Below, in pieces: positions 4,653-15,587 of a DNA stretch of 34,738 nucleotides. Position 1 is the first letter of the stretch, and every line of letters begins with the position of its first letter. The notes beneath the pieces were generated by a model that saw nothing but the letters and a program-made list of their open reading frames with translations, was not told where the DNA came from and did not search any database. The stretch spans positions 1-34,738 of the forward strand of contig CASFBR010000068.1 of NCBI GenBank assembly GCA_949292795.1, written 5' to 3'. A program made the position numbers and the translations under genes. Origin of the DNA: an uncultured Eubacteriales bacterium (GTDB lineage: Bacteria > Bacillota > Clostridia > Lachnospirales > Lachnospiraceae).

Positions 4653-4745
4653 TATCCATCACTTCGTCCAAAGCACCGCGTGGTGCCGCCAGGTTTCGCG
4701 CAGGCACAGCGCAGCGTTTTTGGCGTGTAAAATATGGGAGGTATT

Positions 4746-6971
4746 ATGGAACACACAAAAAACAACGGGGGATTTACATATGAGGAAGCTGCTGCTCTGG
4801 CCCGCAGGAAAAACGAGACGGTCGTCCCGGGCTTTTGCAGCATGTGCGGCCCTAATGGCGGGTGCGGCATCTATGCCTTTGTCAAAGACGGAAGGCTCAT
4901 CCGGGTTGCCGGTATGGCAGAGTCCCCAAAAAACAAAGGCAGTCTTTGTGCCAAGGGGCTGGCGTCCGCACAATGGCTCTATTCCCCGGACCGTCTGAAA
5001 TATCCGCTGCTTCGGAAAGGGAAAAAGGGCGAAGGGATTTTTGAGAAAATATCCTGGGATGACGCGATTTCAATCATCGCAGATAAGCTTTCCGAACAGA
5101 AACGCTTATACGGGCCCGAGTCTCTGGCGATCCTCGCCCCTGCCCTGCGCACCTACAATCCGCTGATGCAGCGTTTTCTGACCGTTCACGGCAGTCCCAA
5201 TTACGGGCACAGCGGCATTTGCGCCATGCAGCGGATGTTCGGCTTCTCCTACACCATCGGCGGTTATCCGGCCTGCGATTATGAACACAGCGATCTGATC
5301 ATTTACTGGGCCAGACAGCCGGTCTATTCCGGGCCTGCGACAGAAATTGCAAAAAGTCTTGTGCGCGCCGTCAAACGCGGTGCAAAAATAATCACGATCA
5401 AGCCTTCGCTGGAAGCGGACGGCGAGCTTGGCAGTCTGTGGCTGCCCATCCGTCCCGGAACCGATGCGGCCCTTGCCCTGGCAATGCTTCATGTGATCAT
5501 CACCGAGGACCTTATCGACCATGACTTTGTGTCACAGTGGTGTTATGGCTATGACCGGCTAAAACAGCATATTGCCCGGTACAGTCCTCAATGGGCTCAG
5601 GACATTTGCGGAATACCGGCAGAGCAGATTCAATCTACGGCCCGCCTGTATGCCCGCACAAAGGCCGCTGCTATTGATGTCGGCAACGGTGTCGAGCACG
5701 CACCGTCATCGTGCGATGCGATCCGTGCGATTGCCATGCTGATGGCCATTACCGGACATTTAAACCGCCCGGGCTGCAATATGGTCGGACAGCCTCCGGC
5801 GGTTCCCTCCCCTGCGCCTCTGCATTTAAACGAACGTTATACGCCGGAAATGGTCGACCGGCTTGTTGCCCCGGAATTTCCAAAGGCATTCCAGCCGTTT
5901 ATGGAGGGGACTTCTTCCGCTTATTTCCGTATTTTTGAAAGCGTTCTGACCAAAAAGCCTTATCCGATCCGCGCCATCATTGCACCGGGAACGCAGCCGC
6001 TTGTAAGTACCCGCGGCTCCGGACTTGTAATGGAAGCTTTGCGGCAGCTGGATTTTTTCGTCACTGTGGATGTCACACGTCCTGCTGAGATGAATTACGC
6101 GGACATTGTTCTGCCCACAACGACCCCCTATGAAGCCGATCATCCCTTCGAGGCTCAGGGTAACTGGATCATGGCACGCCGCAGGATTGTTGAACCTCTG
6201 GGCGACTACAAATCGATTTTTGAATTTATCCTGGAGCTTGCCGTGAAAATGGGCTATGGCGCTGATTTCTGGAACGGGGATATTAAAGCCATGGAAGCAT
6301 ACCGCCTTGCGCCTTTACACATCACCCCGGAAGAGCTTTACAGCCATCCCCAGGGAATCGTGCTGACCCCAAAGCCCCAGCCGGCTGTTGACTTTAAAAC
6401 CGCATTCGGACGGAAAAGTCCGCGTCTGGCACACGACCGCTTCCTGCCTCAGCAAAAGGTCGCTTTATACAATATACTGTTTGAGCAGGAGGGCTTTGAG
6501 CCGATGCCTGTATGGCGGGAGCCTCCGGAAAGCCTGACGGCAACGCCTCATCTGAGAGACCGTTATCCTCTGATTTTGACCGACTATCATACGACAAAAT
6601 CCTTTACCGCTTCCTGGCAGCGCAATGTTGTTTCGCTCAGAGAGATTCAGCCGGAACCGACCGTCCATATCCACCCGGACACTGCCGCACAAAGAGGCAT
6701 TAAAAACGGCGACTGGGTACGGGTCGAATCTCCTCACGGCTGGCTTAAAGTGCGTGCCGAGCTTTATCCCGGCATCCGTCCGGATACCGTCATGATCCAG
6801 CACGGCTGGTGGCAGGGCTGCGGTGAGCTTGGCCTGCCGGATACGCCAATCCTTGACGGCGGCGCCAATGTCAATCATTTATACAGCACTGATCCCCAAA
6901 AGGCTTATGATCCCCTTGTGACAGCCATGTCCAGCCAGACGTTAGTGGAGGTAAGTTTGTATGAGCAATAA
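4746..6971 (+). CDS. Molybdopterin-dependent oxidoreductase catalytic subunit, no Tat signal
   Basis: Large subunit of the DMSO reductase superfamily, binding a bis-pterin Mo or W cofactor. Near the N-terminus four cysteines fit a [4Fe-4S] site: C31, C34, C40 in a CxMCGPxxGC pattern, and C68 in GSLCAKG. The metal ligand is probably Cys159 in HSGICAMQR. The C-terminal cofactor-binding domain is visible from about residue 605 (LTDYHTTKSFTASWQRN, IKNGDWVRVESPHG, IQHGWWQGC). No twin-arginine leader is present, so it should be cytoplasmic. GGGAGG at 4736-4741 lies just upstream of ATG 4746; an earlier in-frame ATG at 4734 would place that site inside the gene and is less likely. The partner iron-sulfur gene overlaps its end by 11 bp. 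Resemblance is to the thiosulfate/polysulfide reductase, acetylene hydratase and transhydroxylase-like branch, but substrate and whether Mo or W is used are unknown. Confidence 0.9.
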   Translation: MEHTKNNGGFTYEEAAALARRKNETVVPGFCSMCGPNGGCGIYAFVKDGRLIRVAGMAESPKNKGSLCAKGLASAQWLYSPDRLKYPLLRKGKKGEGIFEKISWDDAISIIADKLSEQKRLYGPESLAILAPALRTYNPLMQRFLTVHGSPNYGHSGICAMQRMFGFSYTIGGYPACDYEHSDLIIYWARQPVYSGPATEIAKSLVRAVKRGAKIITIKPSLEADGELGSLWLPIRPGTDAALALAMLHVIITEDLIDHDFVSQWCYGYDRLKQHIARYSPQWAQDICGIPAEQIQSTARLYARTKAAAIDVGNGVEHAPSSCDAIRAIAMLMAITGHLNRPGCNMVGQPPAVPSPAPLHLNERYTPEMVDRLVAPEFPKAFQPFMEGTSSAYFRIFESVLTKKPYPIRAIIAPGTQPLVSTRGSGLVMEALRQLDFFVTVDVTRPAEMNYADIVLPTTTPYEADHPFEAQGNWIMARRRIVEPLGDYKSIFEFILELAVKMGYGADFWNGDIKAMEAYRLAPLHITPEELYSHPQGIVLTPKPQPAVDFKTAFGRKSPRLAHDRFLPQQKVALYNILFEQEGFEPMPVWREPPESLTATPHLRDRYPLILTDYHTTKSFTASWQRNVVSLREIQPEPTVHIHPDTAAQRGIKNGDWVRVESPHGWLKVRAELYPGIRPDTVMIQHGWWQGCGELGLPDTPILDGGANVNHLYSTDPQKAYDPLVTAMSSQTLVEVSLYEQ

Positions 6972-7467
6972 AGAACTTGGGTTTGTATTTAAAAAAGAAT
7001 TGTGCATCCAATGCCATGCCTGCGAAAGCGCCTGCAAAAACTGGCATCACACAGGGCCCGGGGTAAAATGGCGCCGCATCGCCCACCGGTGGCAGGGCAA
7101 CTACCCTTTCGTTTCGGGATATACACTGTCTCTGGCCTGTATGCACTGTTTAAATCCGGAATGTACCCGGGTCTGTCCCGCCGGCGCCATAAAAAAGCAT
7201 CCGGACACCGGGGCAGTCCTTGTGGAACCCTCCAAATGTATCGGATGCGGGCGCTGTCTAAAAGCCTGCCCGGTAAAAGCGCCGCAGTTTGGCGCCGACG
7301 GACGGATGCAAAAATGTGATCTGTGCTATGGCGATCCGGCAGTTTTTGACACGTCTGAGCCTCCATGTATCCGTGCCTGTCCCACACAGGCGCTCTCGCT
7401 GCAATGGCGTACCCCGCAGGAAAAAGCGGACGATGAGCGGCAGATGACAGACTTAGCGAAAGACTGA
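6961..7467 (+). CDS. 4Fe-4S ferredoxin-type electron-transfer subunit (DmsB/PhsB-like)
   Basis: A 168-residue iron-sulfur protein with four cysteine groups for four [4Fe-4S] clusters: CIQCHACESAC (C15-C25), CMHCLNPECTRVC, CIGCGRCLKAC, and CDLC followed by CIRACP. This is the standard small subunit that wires electrons to or from molybdopterin enzymes. It overlaps the catalytic-subunit gene by 11 bp with its own site GTGGAGG at 6945-6951, so the two are translationally coupled and surely form a complex. No membrane anchor subunit (DmsC/PhsC/NrfD) follows: the next gene is on the other strand. The electron donor or acceptor is therefore probably a soluble carrier. Confidence 0.93.
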   Translation: MSNKELGFVFKKELCIQCHACESACKNWHHTGPGVKWRRIAHRWQGNYPFVSGYTLSLACMHCLNPECTRVCPAGAIKKHPDTGAVLVEPSKCIGCGRCLKACPVKAPQFGADGRMQKCDLCYGDPAVFDTSEPPCIRACPTQALSLQWRTPQEKADDERQMTDLAKD

Positions 7468-7525
7468 CCTTCCAGATTACAATAACGGCTGACTTTCCAG
7501 ATTACAATAACGGCTGACCTTCCGG
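7466..7525. repeat. 25-bp tandem duplication within a terminator region
   Basis: Copies at 7466-7490 and 7491-7515 differ by one base; a third begins at 7516. Each carries the 13-base left arm (AATAACGGCTGAC) that can pair with 7539-7551. Confidence 0.9.
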
Positions 7526-7551
7526 AAAAATCCGGTTTGTCAGCCGTTATT
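7506..7551. terminator. Bidirectional terminator between the oxidoreductase and the ABC permease
   Basis: A 13-bp perfect stem (7506-7518 with 7539-7551) sits between convergent genes, with an inner CCGG-AAAAAT-CCGG stem. AT-rich stem ends supply U-rich tails in both directions. Position 7481-7493 offers an alternative left arm. Confidence 0.75.
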
Positions 7552-7574
7552 ATTTGTGCGCCTGTTATTATCAT

Positions 7575-8381
7575 TTAGCGTCCGTCATTATCAACAAATT
7601 CCAGACTGATAATCGAAATAAGGCCATAGGCCATGGCAAAAATCAGCAAAATCCCCCAGCACAGGATCAGATTTGAAAATACATGGTCATACTCGGATAA
7701 GCCGCCCATGGGATTCATCGCATTGACATCTGCAATGGCACAGAGGGCATTTAACCCCCATTTGCTGATCGTAAGCTGGGAAATGCCTTTGGCGATACCT
7801 TCCAGTTCAAAGATCATCCCGCACATAATCAGCTGGATGATTAGTGCAAAGGGCATGACCGTCATGGCCGTATTTTCATTTTTGACAATGGATGAAATCA
7901 CCAGTCCAAGACAGTCCGAAGAAAATACAATAAAGAAAAAGGTGATAAACATCTCGAATTCTGCCGGCATGATAATGCCATCTGCCGGGAAATGACTGAA
8001 ATTGGCAATGCGCACAATGACAAGCACGATCAGCGCTTCCCCGAGACAGATACAGGCTTCATACAGCCAGTGGGCAATCACATAGGCTGAAATATGAAGC
8101 CCTGTACGATGCTCCCGCTTAATAATATCTCTTTCCTTGCAGATGGACCGGATCGAATTAAAAATACCAATCCAGATGCAGGCGCTCATCAGAGCGAAGC
8201 TTCCGTTGCGCGTCGGCTGATATTCCGAAAACATGGCGGAGCCGGTCACTGTGGAGATCAAAATCGTAATCAGCGCTGCACTGACAAACGATTTCCAGCC
8301 CTTTTCATTTTTAAAAATACGAAAACACTTCTTTGTATAGATCAGTGTCTGTCGAAATCTTGAAATATGTACCTCTGCCAT
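7575..8381 (-). CDS. ABC-2 type permease of the LRR-kinase/FHA-ABC cassette
   Basis: A membrane protein of 268 residues with six predicted hydrophobic segments: SFVSAALITILISTVTG, the SACIWIGIFNSI segment, EALIVLVIVRI, FITFFFIVFSSDCLGLVI, VMPFALIIQLIMCGMIF and ILCWGILLIFAMAYGLIS. This matches half-size ABC-2 (ABCG-like) permeases that pair with a separate ATPase. ATG 8381 has AGAGGG nearby with good spacing; an in-frame GTG at 8390 overlaps the stop of the ATPase gene as GTGA but would leave the ribosome site too close. It is the last gene of the three-gene operon and ends at the shared terminator 7506-7551. Cargo is unknown; direction of export is inferred from family. Confidence 0.85.
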   Translation of the reverse strand: MAEVHISRFRQTLIYTKKCFRIFKNEKGWKSFVSAALITILISTVTGSAMFSEYQPTRNGSFALMSACIWIGIFNSIRSICKERDIIKREHRTGLHISAYVIAHWLYEACICLGEALIVLVIVRIANFSHFPADGIIMPAEFEMFITFFFIVFSSDCLGLVISSIVKNENTAMTVMPFALIIQLIMCGMIFELEGIAKGISQLTISKWGLNALCAIADVNAMNPMGGLSEYDHVFSNLILCWGILLIFAMAYGLISIISLEFVDNDGR

Positions 8382-8386
8382 ACCAT

Positions 8387-10153
8387 TCACCCTCTGAATT
8401 TATTAATATAGTAATCCGACAGGCCATCGCCGCCCTCATCCGTACGATTGACCTTTTTGACAATACCTTCCAGTGTTGTCGTATCAAAAAAACGGTAAGC
8501 CTCCCTGATGCCGCCGTAAAATGCCAGATGGCCGCAGTCATCAACATTGCTCTTAGCCAGAACGATCACCTTATTAAATAAGTCGGCCGCCCGGTCCGGG
8601 CCATGGGTAATGACCATGACGATTTTTCCCATATCGGCAATGGAACGCAGATTTTCCATCAGGCTCCGCGCCATAATGCCGTCCAGCCCTGAGTCCGGCT
8701 CATCCAGGAAAAACAGGCTCGGATTGCCCGCCAGCTCCGTGGCAATACTCAGTCGCTTGCGCTGGCCGCCGGAAAGCTTGACCACAAGCGAATCCTTCTC
8801 CCGCTCCAGCCCCAAAAGCTGCATGATTTCCTCAACCCGGTTCCGGTAATCGTTCAGTGATGAGGACGCCGGCATTTTCATCTGAGCGGCATTAAACAAT
8901 GTATCATAAACCGTATCGGTCTGCCGCAGAAGATCCTGCTGCGGCACAAAGCCGATCTCATATTTCATCTGCTCATACTGTTCATAAATATCCGTGTCAT
9001 CGTAGGTGATCTTTCCAGTCGCCTTCTCATAGCCCATCACCGCATTCATAAACGTTGTCTTTCCGGCGCCGGACCCTCCGAGGATCAGAACCATATCCTT
9101 GCTCTGGACATCCAGAGAAATATCTTTAAGCAATGTTTTTTTCTTAAAACGCGACCATACATTACGTTCTTCGATGTTGATCACAAGATGGCTGTCCGCA
9201 GCAGATGTGCCGGATGTTTGCTTCCCTGCGCGACCGCCGTCCCGCGGATTTGATCCGGGCGTCGCTCCTGCGCGCCCGCCGCCCCATGAATCTGACTCAG
9301 GTGCCGCTCCCGCGCGCCCGCCGCCCCACGGATTTTGCTCTGGCGACGCTCCCGCGCGCCCGCTGCCCCAGCCGTCGCTTTCGTGGGAAGCGGGCCTAAA
9401 GCTATCCTCACCTGAAAAAACACGGTCGTCTGCCGACATTCCTTCCATACGGATTGTCTGTCCGGGACTGCGGCCAATAATCAGCTTCTCACCTGTATAG
9501 ACAAAGATTGTATGGGTAATAGCAACCACGTCCATTGGTTTTAAATATGCCGGGGACATCAGCCGCTGATGATTGACGAAAACGCCGTTGGTGCTTTGAT
9601 GATCGATAATACTCCACCCCTTCTGGGCGAGGAAAAATGATGCGTGAAGTGCCGATACTGATGGATCGGCCAGCTTAAAATCACCCTGCTCACGCCCTAC
9701 TGTGATTTCCGCATAGGAGCGGTGCAGCTTAAGCGCTCTCCAATCAAGTCCCTTCTTCGGATAGTTCCCGGCCAGCACAAACGCCAGCTCCGCCGGCGCC
9801 CACTCCGGCCGGCGGGCTTTAAAGGAAAGTACATCACCGTCAGACAGCAGATAGGGCCGTTTCGGTTCGCACAGCTTCCCGTTCAGCCATGAGCCGTTGG
9901 TACTGCCATTATCATAATAATAGCACTGGCTCCCGTTCACATAGAAATAGCCGTGCTTTCGGGAAATAATCGCGTTGCTTACGGAAATATCCGTCTTTCC
10001 TTCCGAGGAGAGCCGGCCGAAGCTTTGCTGGCCGGCAAGAAGGATGTCGCTGATATGCCCGCTGCTGTTAAAGCACAGCAGCGCCGGACGAAGCAGCGGT
10101 TCTCCGGAATATACTACGGTTTTATTGTACGGATGATTGTTCGTTTCCATCAT
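8387..10153 (-). CDS. Double-FHA ABC transporter ATPase
   Basis: A 588-residue fusion. FHA domain 1 spans about residues 25-115 (FGR at 45-47, SRKH at 64-67, NGSTNGSWLNG near 82-92). FHA domain 2 spans about 140-222 (VGRE at 152-155, ALHASF, STNGVFVN). A repetitive Gly/Arg/Ala/Pro-rich linker covers 255-312. The ABC ATPase follows: Walker A GGSGAGKTT at 359-367, signature LSGGQRKR at 460-467, Walker B LFFLDEP near 480-486, then an H-loop THGPD. FHA domains bind phosphothreonine, so this ATPase should dock on, or be controlled by, the kinase encoded just upstream. Start 10153 (MMETN) follows GGAGGTG by eight bases; it overlaps the kinase gene by 32 bp. Architecture recalls mycobacterial Rv1747, except that the permease is a separate protein here. 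Confidence 0.92.
   Translation of the reverse strand: MMETNNHPYNKTVVYSGEPLLRPALLCFNSSGHISDILLAGQQSFGRLSSEGKTDISVSNAIISRKHGYFYVNGSQCYYYDNGSTNGSWLNGKLCEPKRPYLLSDGDVLSFKARRPEWAPAELAFVLAGNYPKKGLDWRALKLHRSYAEITVGREQGDFKLADPSVSALHASFFLAQKGWSIIDHQSTNGVFVNHQRLMSPAYLKPMDVVAITHTIFVYTGEKLIIGRSPGQTIRMEGMSADDRVFSGEDSFRPASHESDGWGSGRAGASPEQNPWGGGRAGAAPESDSWGGGRAGATPGSNPRDGGRAGKQTSGTSAADSHLVINIEERNVWSRFKKKTLLKDISLDVQSKDMVLILGGSGAGKTTFMNAVMGYEKATGKITYDDTDIYEQYEQMKYEIGFVPQQDLLRQTDTVYDTLFNAAQMKMPASSSLNDYRNRVEEIMQLLGLEREKDSLVVKLSGGQRKRLSIATELAGNPSLFFLDEPDSGLDGIMARSLMENLRSIADMGKIVMVITHGPDRAADLFNKVIVLAKSNVDDCGHLAFYGGIREAYRFFDTTTLEGIVKKVNRTDEGGDGLSDYYINKFRG
9225..9392 (-). repeat. Four 42-bp in-frame repeats in the FHA-ABC linker
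   Basis: Units at 9225-9266, 9267-9308, 9309-9350 and 9351-9392 encode a 14-residue motif around WGGGRAGAxPE, forming the linker between FHA domain 2 and the ATPase. Confidence 0.88.
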
Positions 10154-13100
10154 CCGGCTCACCTCCCAGCGATGCTCTGATTTCGTCGCGCAGAGAATCC
10201 ATTGTGGCATCTGCCATCTCTCGGGTAACAAATTCCGGCCCTGAAGAAACCGTTCCGCGCAGCTCCTTTGCCTGGCGCTGGATTGCAGCCTGTTCTTCAA
10301 CCGGTGTATCAACAATATAAAAGTTTGAACCAAAGCCCGCCTCCAGAAGCGGCGTGACATCGGCCTGTGCATTATAGCTGATATAAATCATATCCCAATA
10401 ATAATTAATCTCACTCCATGTGCTTATCGGTGAGTAATCGCTGATGGGATTCCCGTAAATAGCCAGCTTATAATTTAACGTTGACGGAAGGCTTGAAAGA
10501 CTTGTAATCTGGTTATTTTCAAGCAGCAGCGCCGTCTGGGCATACAGCCCGCTCTTTTCCCCGGCAAGGCCGGAAAGAACCGATATATCGGAAATCTGAT
10601 TGTTTCCAAGATCAATATACTGCAATTCTGCCATCGACGTACTAAGCGCTGAAATATCGCTGATCTGGTTATTGTTGGCCATAATACCTTTAAGTTCCGG
10701 TTTATTTTCAAGCCCGTCAAGGCTTGTAAGCTGATTATTGGCCACAAGGACGGCCCGAAGCTTCGATGACTGGGCAAGACCGGAAATGTCTGCGATCTGG
10801 TTATCGGAAAGATTGACATAGCGCAGCTCCGGAAAGCCATTTGAAAACATGCTGACATCGCTGATCTGATTATTCTGAAGATCCAGCGTCAGCAGAGATG
10901 TGGCGCTTATAAGGCTGCTCACATCGGTCAGCGCATTGTTGGCACCCCAGAAGCCTACAAGATTGATCATCCCTTTGCACGCATCCAGATTTTGAATCTG
11001 GTTGTTGCGGATATTCAGATTGGCAAGCTTGATCATCGCTGTCAGAGGGGTCAGATCGGTAATCTGATTATTATCCACATAAAGGTCGAACATCTCCATC
11101 ATTCCTGCCAGAGGGCTTAAATCCGTAATCTGATTGCCGGACAGATAGAGATTGGTCATCTGTGTCATTCCCGCCAGAGGGGTCAGATCAGAGATGGCAT
11201 TATCCTTCAGGTACAGGGTTCTAAGACCGGTCATACCTGCCAAGGGCGTCAGATCGGTAATCCCGCAGCCATTTAAGTCCAGACTGCTCATATTTACATT
11301 GGCAGCCAGCACGGTCAGATTGGAAATTCCGGTATTGGCAGCCGAAAGCTCCTCTAAAGCCGTGCAGCCGGCAAGCGCCGAATAATCCTTATCCCCAAGG
11401 GGAATATCATAAATGAACAGGCGGTTAAGCCCCGGCATTGCCGCTAAAAAATTAAGGTTTTCCACACCCTTTGAGCCTGGAATATAAAGTGTCGTCAGAC
11501 TTGGGAAGTTGGCAAGAAAATCCGTGCCTGTGGAAAATGTCACCTGATCTCCAAGGGAAAGATTGGTGACCGTGGGAAAGGGCACTGAAAAAAGTGCCGC
11601 CCCGTCCATCGTTCCTCCTGATTCCACATATACCGACAAGGCTTCCAGTGCAGGCATGGAGGCCAGCGCATTCAGCGATGTAAAGCCGCTGCAATTATCC
11701 AGACTGATCTTGTAAACATTCGTGTTTTTTGCCAGCTCGGCCAGAAGCTCATCGGTAATGACGCAATCGGAAAAGCTTACGATCTCCGTATATTCATCGT
11801 GATTGATCGTATCGATCATCTTATCGGTAACAGTCAGCTCCTTTAAGTAGGAATTGCTGCTGTCAGCCTCCCGGTAGGGGTTGCTTCCCACACCGCCGGA
11901 TAAAAGCAGAACAAGACATAACGCCACGATGATCACTCCGGCGCCCGCAAGGGAAAGCCATAATACCTTTTTATTTTTCTTCCCTCCGGATGCTTTCCCA
12001 CGGCTTTTGCCGCCTGCTGCGGGCTGCGTGCCGGACGTTGCCGCTCTCTGCTCACCTGCTGCGGGCTGCGCTCCGGCCATTGTTACGGTCCGGCCGTCTT
12101 TCTCCGGCTGCGCTCCGGGCATTGCTGCACCCCGGCCGTCTCCTGTGTGCTGCGCTCCGGCCATTGTTACGGTCCGGCCGCCTTTCTCCGGCTGCGCTCC
12201 GGGCGTTGCTGCTCCCTGGCCGCCTCCTATGTGCTGCATTCCGGACATCGCTGCCCCCCGGCCGCCTCCTGCACTTTGACTGCCAGCCGCAGCGCCTGCA
12301 CAGGCTCCCGCCGGCCCCGTCAGTCCCTGGATCAGTTCTTCCATGGAACGGATGCGCGCTTCTTTATGTACCGCAAGGCCGTGAAATAAAACCTGCTGAG
12401 CATACTCGGGAACATCCGCGCCAAAATGAGACGGCGGCGGCAGCTGATCCTCAAACATCCGCGACAGGCTGTCCTGCGGCGTTTCTCCCGTAATACACTT
12501 ATAAAAGGTTGCGCAGGCCGCATAAACATCCGTCCACGGCCCGATACCGCCTTTGCCCTGATACTGCTCCGGCGGCGCATAGCCGGGCTTGAGCATCACG
12601 GTCATTGTTTTTAACAGCTCACCGCTCACATCCGCGGCAGCGCCGAAATCAAGCAGCTTAATGCTGCCGTCCTTAAGCATCATAATATTATCCGGGCTCA
12701 CATCTCTGTGGACATATCCGGCTTTATGGATTTTCCCAAGTACTTCAAGCACCGGCAGCATAAATGTCAGCGCCTGATCCCATGAAATCGGGCCAAACCG
12801 GGTAATATACTCCTTCAGCGTCATCCCTTCAAGATACTCCATGACAATGAACGCTGTTCCATTGGCCTCAAAAAAATCCCGGACATTCACAATGCCGGAC
12901 TGTCCGGCAAAACGGGCCATCGCACGGGCTTCTCTTAAAAAGCGCTCTTTTCCGCCCGCAGCGCCTTCCGTATACTCCTTAACCGCAACCTTCATATCCA
13001 GATTCAGGTCGCGTCCAATATAGGTCATGCCGAAGCCGCCGGCGCCCAGCGGATAGCCAATAAGATACCTGCCGTTTAATATTGTTCCCGGCGGTGTCGC

Positions 13101-13196
13101 CCCGGGAATCGGCGGTTCGCCCTTCCTGGAACGGTCGCACCCGCACGGGCCGTTTCCGGAAAGCTCATCCATGCAATAATAACAATAATTTTCCAT
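10122..13196 (-). CDS. Transmembrane Ser/Thr protein kinase with leucine-rich-repeat ectodomain
   Basis: A 1024-residue receptor-like kinase. Residues 1-25 hold a small zinc-ribbon-like CYYC...CGC group. The Hanks-type kinase domain (about 43-292) is complete: glycine loop GAGGFG (51-56), VAVKEY lysine 73, HRDVSPDN (163-170), DFG (183-185), and a PGYAPPEQY P+1 segment. Residues 305-405 are a Gly/Ala/Gln repeat linker, followed by Lys-rich stop sequence and one membrane helix (411-433). The rest lies outside the cell: more than a dozen 21-23-residue leucine-rich repeats of the internalin/SDS22 type (pattern LxLxxNxIxDLTPLAGM), then a charged tail. It is first in the operon with the FHA-ABC ATPase and permease, so it likely senses an external ligand and phosphorylates threonines read by the FHA domains. 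That coupling is inferred. The ribosome site before ATG 13196 is weak (AGCGGGAA). Confidence 0.93.
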   Translation of the reverse strand: MENYCYYCMDELSGNGPCGCDRSRKGEPPIPGATPPGTILNGRYLIGYPLGAGGFGMTYIGRDLNLDMKVAVKEYTEGAAGGKERFLREARAMARFAGQSGIVNVRDFFEANGTAFIVMEYLEGMTLKEYITRFGPISWDQALTFMLPVLEVLGKIHKAGYVHRDVSPDNIMMLKDGSIKLLDFGAAADVSGELLKTMTVMLKPGYAPPEQYQGKGGIGPWTDVYAACATFYKCITGETPQDSLSRMFEDQLPPPSHFGADVPEYAQQVLFHGLAVHKEARIRSMEELIQGLTGPAGACAGAAAGSQSAGGGRGAAMSGMQHIGGGQGAATPGAQPEKGGRTVTMAGAQHTGDGRGAAMPGAQPEKDGRTVTMAGAQPAAGEQRAATSGTQPAAGGKSRGKASGGKKNKKVLWLSLAGAGVIIVALCLVLLLSGGVGSNPYREADSSNSYLKELTVTDKMIDTINHDEYTEIVSFSDCVITDELLAELAKNTNVYKISLDNCSGFTSLNALASMPALEALSVYVESGGTMDGAALFSVPFPTVTNLSLGDQVTFSTGTDFLANFPSLTTLYIPGSKGVENLNFLAAMPGLNRLFIYDIPLGDKDYSALAGCTALEELSAANTGISNLTVLAANVNMSSLDLNGCGITDLTPLAGMTGLRTLYLKDNAISDLTPLAGMTQMTNLYLSGNQITDLSPLAGMMEMFDLYVDNNQITDLTPLTAMIKLANLNIRNNQIQNLDACKGMINLVGFWGANNALTDVSSLISATSLLTLDLQNNQISDVSMFSNGFPELRYVNLSDNQIADISGLAQSSKLRAVLVANNQLTSLDGLENKPELKGIMANNNQISDISALSTSMAELQYIDLGNNQISDISVLSGLAGEKSGLYAQTALLLENNQITSLSSLPSTLNYKLAIYGNPISDYSPISTWSEINYYWDMIYISYNAQADVTPLLEAGFGSNFYIVDTPVEEQAAIQRQAKELRGTVSSGPEFVTREMADATMDSLRDEIRASLGGEPDDGNEQSSVQ
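12022..12273 (-). repeat. Six 42-bp in-frame repeats in the kinase juxtamembrane linker
   Basis: Six units of 42 bp (12022-12063 through 12232-12273) encode GAQxxxxGRxxxMxG-type 14-mers. Two variants alternate, giving an 84-bp higher-order period in 12064-12231, a sign of recent duplication. Confidence 0.88.
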
Positions 13197-13226
13197 AGTT
13201 CCCGCTCTTACTTTCTGTTTTAATAT

Positions 13227-13398
13227 GATGCCGGGGCCTTTGACCCGGGCATCTTAATATCGCGATACGCCCGAAGGACGATCGCCGTGCTTGCACGGGC
13301 GGGCATCCGACGGGCAACGGTCATCGAGTGGCAATGCCGCGAGATGAGCGAGGCATCGCGATGATCGGGTAGGGGAAGGAATCTTCCCCTATCCGATC
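13227..13398 (-). other. Highly structured leader/intergenic region upstream of the kinase operon
   Basis: Four successive hairpins can form. From the upstream side of the operon: 13363-13378 with 13383-13398 (16 bp, one mismatch); GCAATGCC/GGCATCGC around 13331-13358 with a wobble; a GCCCG-bounded stem with inner CCGTGC/GCACGG near 13271-13318; and 13227-13236 with 13244-13253. GC content is above the flanks. No convincing protein is encoded. It could be a structured 5' leader or a dispersed repeat. Confidence 0.6.
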
Positions 13399-13422
13399 GG
13401 CATAACTGCCGCATCATTTATC

Positions 13423-13449
13423 ATTATAGCATAAAAAAAACCACATCAA
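13423..13449 (-). promoter_or_regulatory. Candidate promoter of the kinase operon, overlapping the xerD terminator
   Basis: TATAAT on the minus strand (13423-13428) with TTGATG (13444-13449) only 15 bp upstream. The -35 lies in an arm of the xerD terminator hairpin. The spacing is short, so support is modest. It would give a 5' leader of roughly 220 nt. Confidence 0.4.
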
Positions 13450-13476
13450 AAGATGCTTTTATCACTTTTGATGTGG
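13433..13476 (-). terminator. Intrinsic terminator of xerD
   Basis: A perfect 12-bp stem (13441-13452 with 13465-13476) starts 11 bases after the xerD stop and is followed on the minus strand by eight T residues (complement of 13433-13440). Confidence 0.92.
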
Positions 13477-13486
13477 CTGCTTTCTC

Positions 13487-14552: not shown

Positions 14553-15587
14553 CTATATATTGGAAAAAAATTTTATCCAGATCGGATTTACATAACACTC
14601 CAGCACACAGCCTGCCGCTATCAGCAGGGCTGCCAGCAAAAATGCCGCCGCAGTTTCACGCCATACAAGACGCCTGCCCGCCTGACGGGAACCGTTTTTT
14701 GCGCGGTTTTTACGGAAAGCATTGATTTTGTCTGCCTGACGGGCCAGACAGATAAATGCCGGAATATAGAGCATGTAATGCGGCAAAAGCAGCTGCAGGA
14801 GCATCAGCAATCCCGATGGGCCGTAGGACACTGCGGCGGAGGAAATGACCACTCCGAAACAGAAGCCAAAATATGCCGTAGATAGATATAATAGCAGACT
14901 CCGGCGCCAAAGTAAAGTTATTCCTGCAAGAAAAATAAAAATTCCGCCTCTTTTCAGAAGAATACGGATGAAAGTCTCCACATTCCCGTCAAAATCAAGA
15001 ACTTTTCCGGTCAGTTCCTCCATCCAATCCCCACTTAAGTTTGCCCAGGTATCAGCGGCAGTATTCATGAACAGCGTCCCTGCAGTCAGCCCGGCTGCAA
15101 AAATAAGCAGCCACACATACCGCCCATAACCAGCCCGGAGCTTATGGGCCCTTTGGCTCTGTCCGTATGCTCCAAAAGATAACGGAATATCCTGTGCTTC
15201 CTGCACCACAAGCATTTCCGGCTCTGCCGCCTTCCCCTTCTCCCGCAGATGTCCCGGCTGATCTAGTCTCTGTTCCCGCAGCTGTCCTGGCTGATCTAAC
15301 CTCTGCTCCCGCAGCTGCCCTGGCTGAGCCATCCTCTGTTCCCGCAGCTGTCCTGGCTGATCTAGCCTCTGCTCCCGCAACTGCCCCGGCCAAGCCAGCT
15401 CCTGCTCCGGCGACGATCCCATCGGATGCGCCCGCTCCTGTACCGGTTCCTTTGTCCGCCTTAAATCGCCGCCATCCTCTGCTGCACCATTGTTGACTTC
15501 GTAAAACACCGCATCCCCCTGCTCACTTACAATCGACCGGGGCATGGCGGCTATATCTTCATCCGGTATCATACGCATCCCATCCAT
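14553..15587 (-). CDS. SpoIIM-like membrane protein with repetitive N-terminal extension
   Basis: The C-terminal 190 residues carry five hydrophobic segments and resemble the SpoIIM (DUF95) family: YVWLLIFAAGLTAGTLFMN, a central GGIFIFLAGITLLW helix, YFGFCFGVVIS, LLLPHYMLYIPAFICL and a final AFLLAALLIAAGCVLECYV ending in NPIW. SpoIIM acts with SpoIID and SpoIIP in septal peptidoglycan remodelling during engulfment. Location next to xerD fits the Bacillus order. The N-terminal 150 residues are unlike SpoIIM: a hydrophilic extension with five 11-residue repeats (QLREQRLDQPG) that should lie in the mother-cell cytoplasm. Start is uncertain: ATG at 15587, 15578 and 15572 are all in frame near an AGAGG. 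The family call rests on topology, motif feel and context, not on a database search. Confidence 0.65.
   Translation of the reverse strand: MDGMRMIPDEDIAAMPRSIVSEQGDAVFYEVNNGAAEDGGDLRRTKEPVQERAHPMGSSPEQELAWPGQLREQRLDQPGQLREQRMAQPGQLREQRLDQPGQLREQRLDQPGHLREKGKAAEPEMLVVQEAQDIPLSFGAYGQSQRAHKLRAGYGRYVWLLIFAAGLTAGTLFMNTAADTWANLSGDWMEELTGKVLDFDGNVETFIRILLKRGGIFIFLAGITLLWRRSLLLYLSTAYFGFCFGVVISSAAVSYGPSGLLMLLQLLLPHYMLYIPAFICLARQADKINAFRKNRAKNGSRQAGRRLVWRETAAAFLLAALLIAAGCVLECYVNPIWIKFFSNI
15242..15406 (-). repeat. Five 33-bp in-frame repeats in the spoIIM-like gene
   Basis: Units at 15242, 15275, 15308, 15341 and 15374, each 33 bp, encode the Gln/Arg/Leu-rich 11-mers. Two sequence variants alternate. 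Confidence 0.92.

Follow-up and report, generated by a model that had tools for sequence, protein, structure and literature searches.

A three-gene cassette encoding a leucine-rich-repeat Ser/Thr kinase, a double-FHA ABC ATPase and an ABC-2 permease in a Lachnospiraceae bacterium

The available part of the published account of PknF and Rv1747 in Mycobacterium tuberculosis describes an operon in which both forkhead-associated (FHA) domains of the transporter are needed for the interaction, the transporter is phosphorylated and the control is positive (PMC3908365). According to the accessible text on DgcB, an N-terminal tail binds the protein's own FHA domain and the +3 residue is important (PMC6733907), and a kinase plus leucine-rich-repeat (LRR) architecture has been reported, in the portion of the paper at hand, for the Pseudomonas aeruginosa Ser/Thr kinase gi 9948555 (PMC1262709). 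Here we describe a three-gene cassette that places an LRR-bearing transmembrane kinase next to an FHA-containing ATP-binding cassette (ABC) exporter in an uncultured Eubacteriales bacterium of the Lachnospiraceae. The window, by which we mean the whole stretch of DNA analysed, comprises 34,738 nucleotides of contig CASFBR010000068.1 (assembly GCA_949292795.1, a 2.89-Mb draft genome in 171 contigs), and the cassette runs on its minus strand from 13196 down to 7575, in the order kinase, double-FHA ABC ATPase, ABC-2 permease:

10122 to 13196, minus strand: LRR-ectodomain transmembrane Hanks Ser/Thr kinase, 1024 residues (open reading frame (ORF), Pfam, motifs, relatives)
8387 to 10153, minus strand: double-FHA ABC ATPase, 588 residues, with an ABCG-like nucleotide-binding domain (ORF, Pfam, NCBIfam, structure model, Foldseek)
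7575 to 8390, minus strand: ABC-2 permease, 271 residues, with an alternative ATG start at 8381 (ORF, Pfam)

The explanation that best accounts for this cassette, and which we consider reasonably likely, is that a receptor kinase gates an FHA-ABC exporter by phosphorylation; the dynamic steps, the ligand, the cargo and the sign of control are what we infer. An outside signal probably switches the pump through the cassette. ORF and Pfam analysis confirmed the three genes, their common strand and their domains as a preliminary description of this DNA had given them, and the PknF–Rv1747 comparison that it drew is supported by the available text on that pair (PMC3908365). The kinase and ATPase genes overlap by 32 bp (10122–10153), as had also been proposed, with GGAGG preceding the ATPase ATG, and this overlap gives the locus the operon layout with a Ser/Thr kinase expected of an Rv1747-like transporter, a likeness of layout. 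The proposed stop/start overlap between ATPase and permease holds, at 4 bp, only if the GTG at 8390 is used; the ATG at 8381, which has the better Shine-Dalgarno spacing, would give no overlap.

The first evidence comes from the kinase, in which Pfam detects Pkinase (117 bits) and LRR_4 (162 bits), both above cut-off, and which can be divided as follows:

12321 to 13094, minus strand: predicted cytosolic kinase domain, residues about 35–292, activation loop K196-T-M-T-V (Pfam, NCBIfam, alignment, motifs)
12064 to 12267, minus strand: juxtamembrane linker of 14-residue (42-bp) tandem repeats with two RTVTM motifs (repeat and motif analysis)
11892 to 11972, minus strand: single transmembrane helix, about residues 409–435, Lys-rich on the kinase side (hydropathy)
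10350 to 11576, minus strand: internalin-like LRR ectodomain, residues about 541–949 (Pfam, NCBIfam; PDB sequence matches include internalins)

The G-loop (51–56), K73, HRD (163–165), N170 and DFG (183–185) are all intact, so that by sequence the protein has the glycine loop, catalytic Lys and Asp, and DFG of a Hanks-type Ser/Thr kinase. The catalytic motif HRDVSPDN has Ser at a position where Lys is usual, and the same Ser is found in three aligned relatives. The protein does not group with the PASTA kinases (PknB/Stk1/PrkC), there being no PASTA match in Pfam and an NF033483 score of 185.8 bits against a cut-off of 450. The RTVTM motifs are possible autophosphorylation sites. Because the single transmembrane segment is flanked by a Lys-rich stretch on the kinase side, the positive-inside rule makes kinase in and LRR out the natural topology. 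The nearest PDB sequences to the LRR part are internalins and other bacterial LRR proteins; LRRs also occur on plant receptor kinases, a likeness by analogy only.

The second gene product carries the elements by which a phosphorylated kinase could be read. Pfam assigns to it two FHA stretches and ABC_tran (PF00005), and to the permease ABC2_membrane (PF01061, 72 bits), all above cut-off:

10118 to 10120, minus strand: Thr12 in a disordered N-terminal tail, candidate phospho-acceptor (model; tails of relatives)
9821 to 10021, minus strand: FHA domain 1 with canonical phosphothreonine-binding residues (domain match and residue check)
9518 to 9706, minus strand: FHA domain 2 with canonical phosphothreonine-binding residues (domain match and residue check)
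9223 to 9370, minus strand: disordered linker of 14-residue (42-bp) tandem repeats between FHA2 and the ABC domain (repeat analysis, model)
8693 to 9130, minus strand: ABC_tran domain (Pfam)

The preliminary description had made its reading depend on phosphothreonine-binding residues in these domains, and both have them: FHA1 keeps R47, S64, H67 and N86, and FHA2 keeps R154, S167, H170 and N189, so two canonical FHA domains precede the nucleotide-binding domain as in an Rv1747-like transporter. Walker A (359–366), LSGGQ (460–464) and Walker B (480–486) are intact as well. In the structure model the two FHA domains adopt predicted FHA folds with a predicted local distance difference test (pLDDT) score mostly of 75–91, and residues 1–20 (pLDDT below 50) and 236–319 are predicted to be disordered. 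The two top Foldseek matches to the nucleotide-binding domain are ABCG proteins and the best NCBIfam model for the ATPase is TIGR00955, at 168 bits far under its full-length cut-off of 736; together with the ABC-2 membrane domain this is the Rv1747-like combination of domains, here carried by separate genes and not by the single chain of Rv1747. A PDB search with the FHA part returned DgcB as best sequence match and also the Rv1747 FHA structure 6ccd (E 0.0019).

The cassette is conserved across three genera. Of 299 family genomes searched with the ATPase, 19 gave relatives with E values up to 1e-60, the own genome among them. One of them (G026:C39) has an identical gene order, with identities of 40% for the kinase, 52% for the FHA-ABC protein and 61% for the permease; a second (G270:C1) also keeps the order and has an LRR kinase with about five transmembrane segments by hydropathy, and in G296 an SH3-domain kinase lies beside FHA-ABC and permease genes in a different order. 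The preliminary description had asked for co-occurrence across genomes, and here the linkage is supported: with a profile built from the three cassette kinases and run on 397 family genomes (334 genera), we obtained 64 match rows in 49 genomes, and the five rows that reach the LRR represent three genes only, each with a double-FHA ABC gene and a permease gene next to it, so that three of three LRR-kinases lie in the cassette. The other 59 rows stop at profile position 407 or earlier, before the LRR. Counting LRR motifs in the kinase ORFs of 30 loci, a few truncated where the 1.5-kb flanks end, gave at least two motifs only in the cassette kinases (L035, L036/L064, L037) and one motif in three other ORFs. 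The genome searches scored the best candidates per genome, about four in the ATPase search, two in the kinase and LRR-kinase profile searches and three in one further search, and may miss relatives, chiefly in kinase-rich genomes.

This linkage bears on a different account, in which the kinase is a general receptor acting chiefly on other targets, the transporter being just one of its clients or a neighbour transcribed along with it. The own genome has eight Pkinase matches, the cassette kinase included, and five FHA stretches (two in the cassette ATPase, two elsewhere with DUF6382 and one with FtsK/SpoIIIE), and cross-talk among Hanks kinases is described in mycobacteria in the available text (PMC3908365). 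However, all three LRR-kinase genes detected among the best candidates scored accompany this transporter, the kinase gene of the window overlaps that of the ATPase by 32 bp and kinase neighbours track canonical FHA domains, and we regard a general receptor as quite unlikely.

If the receptor does gate the exporter, the N-terminal tail of the ATPase is a plausible substrate. Thr12 sits in NKTVVY, and like tails are found in several relatives (SKTLLF, DKTVLY, EKTIMM, ERTIAF), with a bulky hydrophobic residue at Thr +3. Of 11 split proteins whose FHA residues are canonical, 6 have a polar-Thr-hydrophobic tail motif, picked after inspecting the data, against a shuffle mean of 1.9 (fraction 0.003); L083, the source of the ERTIAF tail, was left out of this test, its FHA1 being without the anchor Ser. 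We propose that the LRR of this one-pass receptor kinase would sense something extracellular, leading the kinase to dimerise or cluster and to autophosphorylate. Its phosphothreonines, in KTMTV of the activation loop and in the juxtamembrane RTVTM repeats, would recruit both FHA domains of the ATPase, which the kinase would phosphorylate, most likely in the disordered tail (Thr12, KTVVY) or in the linker. The FHA domains would bind ATPase phosphothreonines in cis or in trans, altering the coupling to, or the activity of, the ABC-2 permease and gating export. As a default guess for an ABCG-like exporter, the cargo may be some hydrophobic component of the envelope, such as a lipid.

The kinase and ATPase linkers are both built of 14-residue tandem repeats, and disordered repeat linkers in both proteins, together with two FHA domains, would permit multivalent contacts. 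The FHA domains could then be mainly a docking scaffold through which transporters, and possibly further phosphoproteins, are drawn by the phosphorylated receptor into a membrane cluster or condensate, while the rate of each pump is left unswitched. Rv1747 reportedly undergoes phase separation. The linker between FHA and ABC domains is, however, poorly conserved among relatives and almost missing from G270, L083 and L084, and we consider a scaffold of this kind unlikely.

Gating by the receptor kinase would lead one to expect that FHA integrity and a kinase neighbour go together, and we examined this at 51 loci: the window, 20 loci, 15 loci (L097–L111) and a further 15 loci from successive searches. 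One scan gave at least 80 loci, of which these L097–L111 were used, and the remaining 65, which aligned only to the ABC part, with 24–32% identity, were excluded. One locus (L098), whose gene is masked by an antisense ORF, stands outside the counts, which therefore cover 50; its two FHA regions are canonical by eye and two opposite-strand kinases lie within 8 kb. A locus counted as canonical when R, S/T, H and N were all kept in one or more of its FHA domains. Of the 20 such loci, 14 have a kinase on the same strand no more than 8 kb away, against 3 of the 30 others; the latter divide into 12 with a detectable but non-canonical FHA, 3 of them with such a kinase, and 18 in which no FHA could be detected, none with one. 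After removal of L100, a duplicate of L069, and of four loci with little flank (L082, L108, L196, L208), the counts were 14/19 versus 3/26. Fisher's test on all 50 rows gives 1.7e-5, for rows that are related and are not independent evidence. At 14 of the 18 relatives with no FHA (L072–L074, L076–L081, L104–L107, L200) the FHA region is replaced, by eye, by a hydrophobic N-terminal domain, which had no Pfam match in the two tested (L072, L074), and none of these 14 loci has a kinase nearby. PP2C genes were detected at 7 of the 50 loci, by phmmer from one Pfam-confirmed PP2C.

Several observations weigh against gating by the kinase. On an ATPase-domain tree of 47 rows, the canonical-FHA state changes about four times, and an independent-pair sign test on the tree gives p values of 0.25–1. 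Three loci (L068, L070, L099) have a kinase despite non-canonical FHA residues, and six with canonical FHA show no kinase (L097, L195, L205, L206, L207 and L208, with little flank at L097 and L208). The Thr-tail motif was absent from all eight longer chains tested, phmmer found no PP2C in the window, and the single-sequence structure model of the LRR-kinase, with a mean pLDDT of 44, was discarded. Because only three to four contrasts are phylogenetically independent, the association is suggestive and not significant after correction; the data show it clearly but do not prove that it arose by co-evolution more than once.

The kinases near these transporters differ in their ectodomains: LRR in the window, L065 and L066, SH3 in L083, PASTA in L109 and L194, TPR in L070, L084, L099 and, on the opposite strand, L098, F5/8-type C-like in L197 and L198, NHL in L202 and DUF5050 in L199. 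Solute-binding matches at L109 and L194 fell under the Pfam cut-off, and the scans made gave no ectodomain match for the kinases of L067, L110 and L201. Because neighbouring kinases carry different ectodomains, the comparison suggests a kinase-FHA-exporter chassis with interchangeable sensors. More tentatively, as a possibility that falls short of probable, bacteria of this family could use a modular receptor-kinase platform whose swappable ectodomains directly license a phosphothreonine-reading ABCG exporter, providing ligand-gated export without a transcription step. The preliminary description had not recognised the arrangement as described; among the papers listed in searches of an open-access collection we saw no description of the LRR version, and the LRR is only one of several ectodomains. 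It had also counted the split transporter as distinctive, a view we abandoned: split transporters are common among relatives, 10 of the 50 chains are fused ATPase-permeases by phmmer (L101, L197–L199, L202–L207), and because Clostridia have transporters of either form, the split is not the unusual feature. A separate observation concerns L067 (G026:C46), a second FHA-ABC locus of G026, where two kinases, a PP2C phosphatase and a VWA protein lie in one gene run.

Among same-genus genomes the ATPase is present in one of four, and in three of three the DAHP synthase and XerD genes directly adjoin, with otherwise collinear flanks and an empty cassette site. In the window these two genes are separated by about 8.8 kb (4653–13486), comprising plus-strand molybdopterin oxidoreductase and 4Fe-4S protein genes (Pfam) and the minus-strand cassette. 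With four species compared, acquisition of the segment by this lineage is more probable than loss from the three others. The XerD-like tyrosine recombinase, because it is present in all four species, marks the site and not the insert, and no other recombinase was recognised by eye among the window ORFs. A foreign composition of the cassette was rejected, the third-codon-position GC content (GC3) of the insert genes being within the range of their neighbours. An accessory locus would suit a competition unit, in which a peptide or a neighbour is sensed by the LRR and the pump serves to export or expel a peptide. Peptides are among the substrates that ABC-2 exporters can move, and the ATPase has an NCBIfam likeness, though generic, to bacteriocin-export ATPases. 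By eye, however, no peptide-maturation or biosynthetic gene was seen among adjoining ORFs of at least 80 residues (shorter ORFs were not searched), and we hold this reading to be very improbable.

Other features of the genome were recorded. Just upstream of the kinase gene lies a dispersed repeat of about 138 bp (13261–13399) with 47 genome matches, itself and short partials included, whose minus-strand RNA folds very stably (z –6.4). It may be akin to a miniature inverted-repeat transposable element (MITE) or a repetitive extragenic palindromic (REP) element; a Y1 transposase (PF01797) was rejected as its source, none being present in the genome. Tandem repeats of 33 bp (15240–15408) lie inside the coding region of a SpoIIM-like gene (14553–15587). 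On contig C42 of the same genome (L086), an FtsK/SpoIIIE-type ATPase with an FHA domain, which we take to be EssC-like, is encoded about 5 kb from a Hanks kinase. Nothing in the window matched Rfam at the gathering score.

If gating by the receptor kinase is correct, the cassette would offer a compact and testable case, outside mycobacteria, of ligand-gated export under a bacterial receptor kinase whose sensor lies in the gene adjoining that of the phospho-reader. The range of ectodomains beside one transporter type would make it possible to ask what each senses and whether sensors interchange, and the cassette would provide a route to finding what the FHA-ABC exporters of gut-type commensals carry and which ligand they answer to.

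Comparison with known systems places the cassette among several partial likenesses. The self-binding FHA regulators GarA, OdhI and DgcB share with the ATPase a short Thr-bearing tail ahead of an FHA domain; they are not transporters, and phosphorylation of the tail here is a prediction. The P. aeruginosa kinase gi 9948555 is likewise a bacterial kinase with LRR, but in the part of the report available no link to an FHA transporter appears (PMC1262709). Nine clostridial fused chains (L197, L198, L199, L202–L207) combine FHA, ABC and a phmmer-confirmed permease part, as the cassette does, but in one chain, and the ectodomains of their kinases are F5/8-like, DUF5050 or NHL instead of LRR; a same-strand kinase lies within 8 kb of four of the nine (L197, L198, L199, L202) and PP2C at three of nine, and the FHA residues of two (L203, L204) are non-canonical. 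PknF–Rv1747, like the predicted operon here, joins a Hanks kinase to a double-FHA ABCG-family exporter, there in an operon of two genes, and the present locus differs in its split transporter genes, in the large LRR ectodomain of its kinase and in its clostridial host. The mechanism is most likely a variant of the PknF–Rv1747 theme with an LRR receptor.

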